Below are positions 50,015-52,856 of a stretch of 64,000 bases of DNA, in pieces. Below the pieces are notes generated by a model. The model ran no database searches. It had not been told where the DNA came from and worked only from the letters and a program-made list of their open reading frames with translations. The position numbers were made by a program, and so were the translations under genes. Every line of letters starts with the position of its first letter. Position 1 is the first letter of the stretch. Source of the stretch: Candidatus Competibacteraceae bacterium (lineage in GTDB: Bacteria > Pseudomonadota > Gammaproteobacteria > Competibacterales > Competibacteraceae); NCBI GenBank assembly GCA_003989085.1, contig RXIV01000001.1:744001-808000 (forward strand). Reading direction: 5' to 3'.

Positions 50015-51250
50015 ATGAGTCGGCTTAAAGGTAAAGTCGTGATCGCCCAAGGCGGCGGCCCTACCGCAGTCATCAATCAAAGTCTGGTCGGGGCGGTGCT
50101 GGAATCCCGCAAGTTCCCGGAAATCACCGATGTATGGGGCGCGCTGCACGGAGTGCGGGGCATCGTTAACGAAAATTTTGTCAACCTGTCCGAAGCCACC
50201 ACCCACAACCTCGAACTGGTTGCCCAAACCCCGTCCTCGGCGCTCGGTTCGACCCGCGACAAGCCTGATGCCGAGTATTGCAACCGTATTTTCAATGTAT
50301 TCAAGAAGCACGACGTTCGCTACTTCTTCTACATCGGTGGCAATGATTCCTCGGATACGGTGCGGATCGTCAACGAACACGCTGACCGGGAAGGCTACGA
50401 ACTACGGGCCATCCACATCCCCAAGACGGTCGATAATGATCTGCCGATCAATGATCATTGCCCCGGCTATCCTTCCGCTGCCCGCTTCGTCGCCTGCGCG
50501 ATCAACGGGGTCAATGCCGATAATGCCGCGCTGCCGGGTGTCTACATTGCAGTGGTCATGGGCCGTCACGCTGGCTGGCTGACGGCGGCGGCGGCACTGG
50601 CCCGCAAGCATGATGACGATGGCCCGCATCTGATCTATGTGCCGGAGCGGCAGTTCTCGATCGATCGCTATCTGGGCGACATTGATCGCGTTTACAAGCA
50701 ACAGGGCCGCTGCATTGTGGCGCTGTCGGAAGGGGTTTGGGCCACCCGCGATGAAAAGGGCAAGGAAGTGCCGCTGGCGGCTGATCTGATGCGCAAGGCC
50801 GGGCGCGAGCCGCAGGTCGATGATCACGGCAATATCCAGTTATCTGGCGGGGCGTTGGCTGACGAACTGGCCGATGTGGTGCAAAAACGCCTCGGCATCA
50901 AGCGGGTCCGCTCGGATACCTTTGGTTATCTACAACGCTCATTCCCTGGCGTGGTGTCCAATGTCGATGCTCGCGAGGCCCGTGAAGTCGGTGAAAAAGC
51001 CGCACATTACGCCTGCTGGCACAATGTGGATGGCTCTGTGGTCATCAAGCGCACCGGCGACTACGCGGTGAAGTACGAACTGGCGCGGTTGGAAGACATC
51101 GCCGCCAAGACCCGCCATATGCCGGATGAGTTCCTCAACGCCGATGGCAACCACGTCACTGACGCCTTCCGCAGCTACCTGCGGCCCTTGCTTGGTGATG
51201 ACATGCCCTATCTGGAACGGTTGTGGGCGCCGGCAGCCAAGATCCTGTAA
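50015..51250 (+). CDS. Pyrophosphate-dependent 6-phosphofructokinase
   Basis: 411 residues. It belongs to the PPi-dependent group: the phosphate loop reads GGNDSS with N110-D111 where ATP enzymes have D-G, and PKTVDND has K137 where ATP enzymes have Gly. IAQGGGPTAVINQSLVG, MGRHAGWL, VPERQFSID and SEGVW are further signatures. The reaction is reversible (fructose-6-P + PPi to fructose-1,6-bisP + Pi), so it can serve both glycolysis and gluconeogenesis or a Calvin cycle. AGGAGAGG precedes ATG 50015. Confidence 0.95.
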   Translation: MSRLKGKVVIAQGGGPTAVINQSLVGAVLESRKFPEITDVWGALHGVRGIVNENFVNLSEATTHNLELVAQTPSSALGSTRDKPDAEYCNRIFNVFKKHDVRYFFYIGGNDSSDTVRIVNEHADREGYELRAIHIPKTVDNDLPINDHCPGYPSAARFVACAINGVNADNAALPGVYIAVVMGRHAGWLTAAAALARKHDDDGPHLIYVPERQFSIDRYLGDIDRVYKQQGRCIVALSEGVWATRDEKGKEVPLAADLMRKAGREPQVDDHGNIQLSGGALADELADVVQKRLGIKRVRSDTFGYLQRSFPGVVSNVDAREAREVGEKAAHYACWHNVDGSVVIKRTGDYAVKYELARLEDIAAKTRHMPDEFLNADGNHVTDAFRSYLRPLLGDDMPYLERLWAPAAKIL

Positions 51251-51275: not shown

Positions 51276-51301
51276 CCCCTCTCTCGCTAGCGGGAGAGGG
51301 G
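51276..51301. repeat. Palindrome between convergent genes (terminator-like)
   Basis: CCCCTCTC-T-CGCT and AGCG-G-GAGAGGGG form a 26-bp palindrome with one T/G mismatch, between the 3' ends of the PPi-PFK gene and the HPr-like protein gene. A short TAAATCTAA but no T-run follows. It has the look of a dispersed REP-like unit. Confidence 0.55.
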
Positions 51302-51320: not shown

Positions 51321-52856
51321 CTACCGCCGCAGATAGCCCAGTTCCTTGGGCAAAGTCGTATTGTTGCCGAAGTGATCCTCGCCATAACCCGACTGGGCCA
51401 GCAGTTCCAGATCATCCAGCACCCGTTGATCGCCCGTAAACCGGATACTCAAATCTGCCCGGATATCAATTTGGCCGGTTGCCTGCAACCGGGCGATTTC
51501 GGCAGTCACTTTTTCCAGAAGAATACCGTCGTGACTGAATTCATTGGATAACTGCAAAGGTTGTTGATAGAGAATAATCTTGCCTTCCTGGGCCAGTTTC
51601 AGCACTACATGCAACACTGCCGCCCGGATTTGGCTCTCGTTGAGATTGCCTCTGGGAGGAGGGATGCGTTCAATTTCGGCCACCAGCCAGCGCCGTTTCC
51701 AAGCGTTGATCTTTTCATTAGCCCGGAAGATATCCATGGGCGATCCGGCATCATAAATTTGACCGTCCAGTTCCATTCGGATATCACTACCGTAATGCCT
51801 GACGATCTTGGCAATCAGCGTGGCGGGACGAACGTGAAACCCCCGGTAAGAAGGGACCGGCACATCCACATTGCCCACTTCGGCATAACGCTTGAGCATG
51901 GTGTGGCAAAAACGCTGACCGAGATCAAGGTATTGTCCGGCGTAAGCAATAGCATAATCCATTAGCATGGCTAATAGCGTCTTGGCGGAAATAATCGGTT
52001 GGCGACGCAGTGAGGAATCGCCGGTCCGGGCATTCAAATGACGCTCGTAGTAATGGGCAAGATCCGTGGCAATCTCCAGCAAATGATAAACCACGCTGAT
52101 ATGTCCACGCAGCACCGGCAAACCGGTATCAAGAAATTCAATCTCGGTTTCAGAGACATGGGTATCGTAAAGCGATTGCAGGCTATGAAACCGGAATTTC
52201 AAATAACGGATGTTATCTTCACTGAGCGGATTCGGGAAACAACTGGGATACTGCGACGGCTTGACCCGTTCGGCCAGATGCAACGATTCGCTCTCCGCCG
52301 CCAGATTCAGATAAGCAGTAGCCAAGTATGTAATGATATCGACTGCACTTTTGATCTGGCGCATGGGTCGATCCTGCGACAACCGGCCCGGCGGCAATGG
52401 CTCAGCATAATCGGCAGCGCCAAGTGGATCAGCCAGCAAAGGCAAATTCAGGCGGGTAACCTGGGCCAGCAGTCCATCCGCCGCACGCGCCAACAGATCC
52501 CGGATCAATTCCAGCGACTGCGCGGTCGCTACCGAAAAATCACGCTCGACTGGCGGCAACTGGTAAAAAGGCAGGGAGTGCTGGATATGTAGCAGCTTGT
52601 AGCCAACATTGGCGAACAACTTGAGCGTAGCCGTCAGCGACCGAAACCGCGACCACTGGCGGTTATTGCGCGCTCCATAAGCATCGAGTAGTTCTTCCAT
52701 TTGAACCGCCTGGGACAACAGATCGCCGACCAGCGGACGGGTCAGAGTGTCTGGCGGTGATCGCGCCGCCAACCAGTGGGCGATAGACAACAGTCTGCCG
52801 GCGCGAATCGCGATCAGTTCGGCAAATTCACTAGGGTTGATCATGACTGGACGCAT
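51321..52856 (-). CDS. Large uncharacterised protein with HPr-like domain
   Basis: 511 residues (an internal start at 52844 would drop four). About 320 helical residues without a recognised domain precede a region like the PTS phosphocarrier HPr: NVDVPVPSYRGFHVRPATL (H341 at the position of HPr His15, followed by V-R-P-A), AKIVRHYGSDIRMEL, then GSPMDIFRANEK, where HPr carries its Ser46 segment. About 100 C-terminal residues follow. It may bind or accept phosphate or work as a regulator. It is convergent with PPi-PFK. No PTS enzyme I or II is in the window. Confidence 0.75.
   Translation of the reverse strand: MRPVMINPSEFAELIAIRAGRLLSIAHWLAARSPPDTLTRPLVGDLLSQAVQMEELLDAYGARNNRQWSRFRSLTATLKLFANVGYKLLHIQHSLPFYQLPPVERDFSVATAQSLELIRDLLARAADGLLAQVTRLNLPLLADPLGAADYAEPLPPGRLSQDRPMRQIKSAVDIITYLATAYLNLAAESESLHLAERVKPSQYPSCFPNPLSEDNIRYLKFRFHSLQSLYDTHVSETEIEFLDTGLPVLRGHISVVYHLLEIATDLAHYYERHLNARTGDSSLRRQPIISAKTLLAMLMDYAIAYAGQYLDLGQRFCHTMLKRYAEVGNVDVPVPSYRGFHVRPATLIAKIVRHYGSDIRMELDGQIYDAGSPMDIFRANEKINAWKRRWLVAEIERIPPPRGNLNESQIRAAVLHVVLKLAQEGKIILYQQPLQLSNEFSHDGILLEKVTAEIARLQATGQIDIRADLSIRFTGDQRVLDDLELLAQSGYGEDHFGNNTTLPKELGYLRR

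Follow-up and report, generated by a model that had tools for sequence, protein, structure and literature searches.

What does a protein of 511 residues with an HPr-like segment do beside a gene for PPi-dependent phosphofructokinase (PPi-PFK)? In the window (the whole 64,000-nucleotide stretch of Competibacteraceae DNA that was analysed), the open reading frame lies on the minus strand exactly where a reading of the sequence alone had placed it, and it is indeed convergent with the PPi-PFK gene. Judging from the sequence comparisons described below, the encoded protein, hereafter the split-HPr protein, is probably a regulatory protein phosphorylated by the PTS. The features to which we refer are the following (positions in the window):

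51321..52856, minus strand: open reading frame of the split-HPr protein, 511 aa (Met5 is a possible alternative start)
51879..52856, minus strand: residues 1-326, all-helical domain (AlphaFold pLDDT 91.5 when modelled alone; conserved between short and long forms)
51726..51878, minus strand: residues 327-377, first HPr part (b1-a1-b2-b3 and the start of a2, containing H341 and S372), from profile matches, AlphaFold and alignment
51834..51836, minus strand: codon of H341, equivalent to HPr His15 (invariant in 92 of 92 sequences)
51741..51743, minus strand: codon of S372, equivalent to HPr Ser46 (Ser in 63 of 72 long and 20 of 20 short forms)
51450..51725, minus strand: residues 378-469, insert of 92 residues that separates a2 (the Ser46 helix) from b4 of HPr, from short relatives (10 residues there) and AlphaFold
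51372..51449, minus strand: residues 470-495, last HPr part (b4-a3), from structure alignment; directly joined to HPr in short relatives
50015..51250, plus strand: PPi-PFK (NF010675), convergent neighbour, from the family model and the GGND and PKTVDND motifs
51276..51301, no strand assigned: 11-bp G+C-rich hairpin between both convergent stop codons (z -3.9; missed by the consensus terminator scan)

The resemblance to HPr is far beyond chance. In the GFHVRPAT motif, H341 occupies the position of the HPr active-site histidine, and S372 of the GSPMDIF segment aligns with Ser46, both as the sequence-only reading had proposed. PTS-HPr (PF00381) was the sole Pfam match (residues 332-377, E 1.6e-4), its 22.1 bits falling just under the curated cut-off of 23, and the protein scored 25.1 bits against the same model in a genome-wide search; the NCBIfam HPr family model TIGR01003 matched the same stretch with E 1.4e-6 and 28.1 bits, below its cut-off of 47.9. 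The PTS-HPr model was matched individually by 60 of 67 homologues, among which G339, H341, V342, R343 and P344 are invariant when aligned, and across the full set of 92 aligned sequences (72 long forms and 20 short ones, drawn from two phyla) H341, R343 and P344 never vary. A PDB sequence search returned HPr alone, at E 0.05 or weaker.

The AlphaFold model of the whole protein, built on the 67-sequence alignment, has a mean pLDDT of 89.2 and a pTM of 0.85. Residues 327..495 of this model align with residues 1..89 of solved HPr structures, the best partner being HPr of T. tengcongensis (Z 12.3, 1.5 Å, 83 of 89 residues), and do so only when residues 378-469 are skipped; for this reason, we describe the predicted HPr domain as complete but split, with b1-a1-b2-b3-a2 followed by a 92-residue insert and then by b4-a3. 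With the insert skipped, the predicted model has the b-a-b-b-a-b-a fold of HPr, although not as one uninterrupted domain of about 85 residues. The fold had been expected at residues 325-410, and what stands is the fold itself, its range running instead from 327 to about 495 with the interruption at 378-469.

The insert opens with a strongly conserved (F)RANExINAxKRR motif, and shorter relatives independently confirm that it is a true insertion. Among 294 Planctomycetota genomes we found about ten long forms along with some 50 shorter relatives, many of the latter matching profile positions 3-375 and two also matching 470-510. The 20 short planctomycete forms retrieved consist of the helical domain and HPr, with 10 residues in place of the 92 and b4-a3 following directly, and all of them keep H341, R343, P344 and S372. 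The PTS-HPr cut-off of Pfam was exceeded by seven of the eight short relatives scanned, some of which span 13-78 of the 81 model positions. Since the short forms have 10 residues at this place, the parent family combines a helical domain with HPr, and the long clade is distinguished by the insert. In the tree, short and long forms are separated with full support, and the Phycisphaerae long forms make up one group adjoining the proteobacterial ones. At least one transfer of the long-form gene between phyla is likely, because two phyla share it at about 50% identity; the joining branches of the tree are long.

Searching 84,980 species of bacteria and archaea gave 134 relatives, the best 80 of which belong to Competibacteraceae, Accumulibacter/Dechloromonas and Phycisphaerae. 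Conservation extends along the entire 511-residue protein in Competibacteraceae, Accumulibacter and Phycisphaerae. Among 59 Competibacteraceae relatives searched, 28 carry the gene, with 57-92% identity, and the copies from Accumulibacter/Dechloromonas and Phycisphaerae show about 47-55%. Of 398 evenly sampled Pseudomonadota genomes, the window's own was the sole one with the gene, viral contigs and plasmids held no relatives, and PHROGs and PADLOC gave no match to the protein. A 1074-aa frame in Dechloromonas (L079) resembles an N-terminal fusion, but its extension was rejected as a domain because it is read-through of an open frame rich in G+C. Separately, Competibacteraceae-type copies with an adjacent PPi-PFK occur in records titled Synechococcaceae (L046) and Phycisphaerales (L058), which are probably mislabelled or contaminated bins, and the Competibacter phosphatis copy (L076, 7884-9525) lies in two overlapping frames, a frameshift or assembly error.

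PPi-PFK is the next gene in 22 of the 27 Competibacteraceae loci with downstream sequence, either as a convergent NF010675 gene, as in the window (13 loci), or as a co-directional NF005121 gene (nine loci, with gaps mostly of 9-185 nt), and both families bear the PPi-type signatures GGD/N-D and PKTxDND. In the window the two genes converge on a terminator-like hairpin and do not form an operon; the hairpin at 51276-51301 is likely a terminator shared by both. Conserved linkage to PPi-PFK holds within Competibacteraceae but was not seen in other groups: in Accumulibacter and Planctomycetota, distances of up to 8 kb showed none, and because of this PPi-PFK cannot be a general partner. Planctomycete neighbours are instead LysR/HAD/lipoprotein/flavodoxin/FabZ-like genes or exonuclease III/Tex.

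The adjacency may thus be inherited synteny of a single family and functionally meaningless, an explanation that is compatible with other readings of the protein and to which we give slightly less than an even chance. In its favour, beside the restriction to Competibacteraceae, three loci (L047, L050, L057) have the split-HPr gene, an NF005121 PFK and an NF010675 PFK in a row, while most others keep one PFK, as loss from such a row would explain; the convergent and co-directional states may come from one ancestral arrangement, and other neighbours (lolA, serS, rarA) are housekeeping genes. Against it, PFK stays adjacent while the other neighbours differ between loci, and three near-complete Competibacteraceae genomes (G006, G009, G016) lack both the split-HPr gene and the two PPi-PFK types, with two exceptions to this pairing elsewhere (G008 has the gene without either PPi-PFK type, G011 a PFK without the gene).

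Other arrangements were observed outside the family. Many Phycisphaerae (L068, L072, L077, L080 and similar loci) have a co-directional run of LysR, HAD phosphatase, lipoprotein-like, split-HPr, flavodoxin and FabZ-like genes, and the short gene of Planctomycetota (L141-L160) has parB, hemW and pyrF close by in a conserved block. A sigma-70 family gene lies near the short helical-HPr gene in eight of 20 planctomycete loci, and, given the binding of HPr to Rsd in E. coli, a link to transcription is conceivable.

The part of the protein that the sequence-only reading had left unrecognised, residues 1-326, matched no family in the profile libraries either (Pfam, NCBIfam, PHROGs, PADLOC). The domain is all-helical when modelled alone, and fold comparison gave no convincing relative, the best scores lying within the range of unrelated helical bundles (best Z 12.2, to a designed bundle; CHAD Z 7.8, within the helical-bundle noise). 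CHAD, Rsd, vinculin and CheA P1 were each considered as relatives, and none rose above this noise, a result that does not in itself argue against kinship; hhalign showed no internal duplication. Overall sequence identity in the domain is low, and E213, H224, Q227, Y230, D231, S254, H268, E271 and R272 are invariant across short and long forms, with R217, T237, R250, H258 and H273 nearly so. Such polar residues suggest a binding or catalytic site, or a contact with the HPr domain. The domain could accordingly be an enzyme or a metabolite-binding domain, with HPr giving or taking phosphate inside the same chain, the transfer running between H341 and a substrate that the invariant H/R/E/D residues would hold; that nine polar residues are kept in both forms despite the low identity points to a site more than to a scaffold, but the domain matches no enzyme family or fold and the same residues might just as well form the contact surface with HPr, and we consider this reading unlikely.

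Regarding PTS partners, the sequence-only reading had supposed a PTS-independent protein, and this part of it finds no support. The same genome holds a textbook cluster lptA-lptB-rpoN-hpf-ptsN-hprK-rapZ-ptsH-ptsI (L131, 55-7789), together with an EIIAGlc-HPr-EI fusion and a FruB-type fusion adjoining fruK; both enzyme I (EI) and HprK, which had been named as partners to look for, are therefore present, with five EI N-domains in total and, besides the split-HPr protein, one free-standing HPr as well as two HPr domains in fusions. Enzyme I occurs in 32 of 33 other long-form genomes and in 29 of 31 short-form genomes. We do not take this co-occurrence as positive evidence, because enzyme I is nearly universal in the background as well (19 of 20 planctomycetes that gave no significant match), and its presence is permissive only.

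The distribution of HprK bears on a further possibility, namely that the HPr fold is kept as an unphosphorylated docking module, similar to Crh, acting through the Ser46-type site or through shape. HprK is encoded in the window's own genome and in all nine other proteobacterial carriers, and S372 is mostly Ser; however, HprK is absent from all 24 planctomycete carriers, so that Ser phosphorylation by HprK is not the family-wide mode, and H341, R343 and P344 never vary whereas the Ser site is replaced by L, A or T in some long forms. Such docking without phosphorylation is for us quite improbable. Least probable of all is a true phosphocarrier, a bulky alternative HPr feeding an unlinked EII or EIIA, since, even with a complete HPr active site and with PtsN and fused EIIA proteins in the genome, a free HPr and two fused HPr domains are already there, no EII gene is linked and a conserved 326-residue helical domain would be superfluous for a carrier. 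Neither Pfam nor NCBIfam found an EIIA, EII or EI domain in the chain, and since EII accompanies the protein neither as a domain nor as a gene, we would sooner take it for a regulator than for a phosphocarrier.

We therefore return to the PTS-phosphorylated regulatory protein. In the mechanism that we propose, an N-terminal helical effector domain is joined to a complete HPr domain split by the insert; phosphorylated enzyme I would phosphorylate H341 according to the PEP/pyruvate ratio, and the phosphorylation state, read via the helical domain and the insert, would alter target binding. In Competibacteraceae the likeliest target would be the neighbouring PPi-PFK, and PPi-driven glycolysis from glycogen would in this way track the carbon and energy state. 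Phosphorylation by EI, the switching and the target are all inferred, and we regard the explanation as a whole as about evenly balanced between right and wrong; that PPi-PFK is the direct target is, on its own, rather unlikely. Nevertheless, E. coli HPr binds PfkB and PykF (PMC8167557), structures of HPr with glycogen phosphorylase exist in the PDB (9s8b) and, for these reasons, HPr-type control of phosphofructokinase in a glycogen-accumulating family is plausible by analogy.

A bolder proposal, which we hold to be improbable, is that these proteins form a new class of PTS output, in which the insert and the helical domain turn the His-phosphorylation state into direct control of PPi-PFK in glycogen-accumulating bacteria, and of other targets in Planctomycetota. 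The family is retained by phyla whose PTS is thought to be largely regulatory; Planctomycetes have EI of group R without PTS transporters (PMC2405797). If the regulatory reading is true, the missing output of such a regulatory phosphorelay would be supplied, and wastewater bacteria that accumulate glycogen or polyphosphate might have a means of switching PPi-based glycolysis.

In the open literature on Competibacter, Accumulibacter and Planctomycetes, we found no description of such a protein. With the HPr/NPr family (PF00381, TIGR01003) it shares the fold, the HxRP active site and the Ser46 position; free HPr is a protein of about 85-90 aa, whereas here HPr forms the C-terminal part of 511 residues and contains the 92-residue insert. 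The multiphosphoryl transfer proteins (FPr/FruB and EIIAGlc-HPr-EI, both types present in the same genome) also have HPr inside a larger protein, but they carry EIIA or EI, while the split-HPr protein has neither, and its all-helical N-terminal domain is not related to them. Crh of Bacillus is likewise an HPr-like regulatory protein; it lacks the active histidine, which in the split-HPr family is invariant. Finally, HPr of E. coli binds Rsd, an anti-sigma protein, and its interactions with Rsd and with PfkB/PykF provide a precedent for HPr binding that controls a helical regulator or glycolytic enzymes; in those cases the partners are separate proteins, and our comparisons revealed no tie, in sequence or in fold, to the helical domain that is here joined to HPr in one chain.
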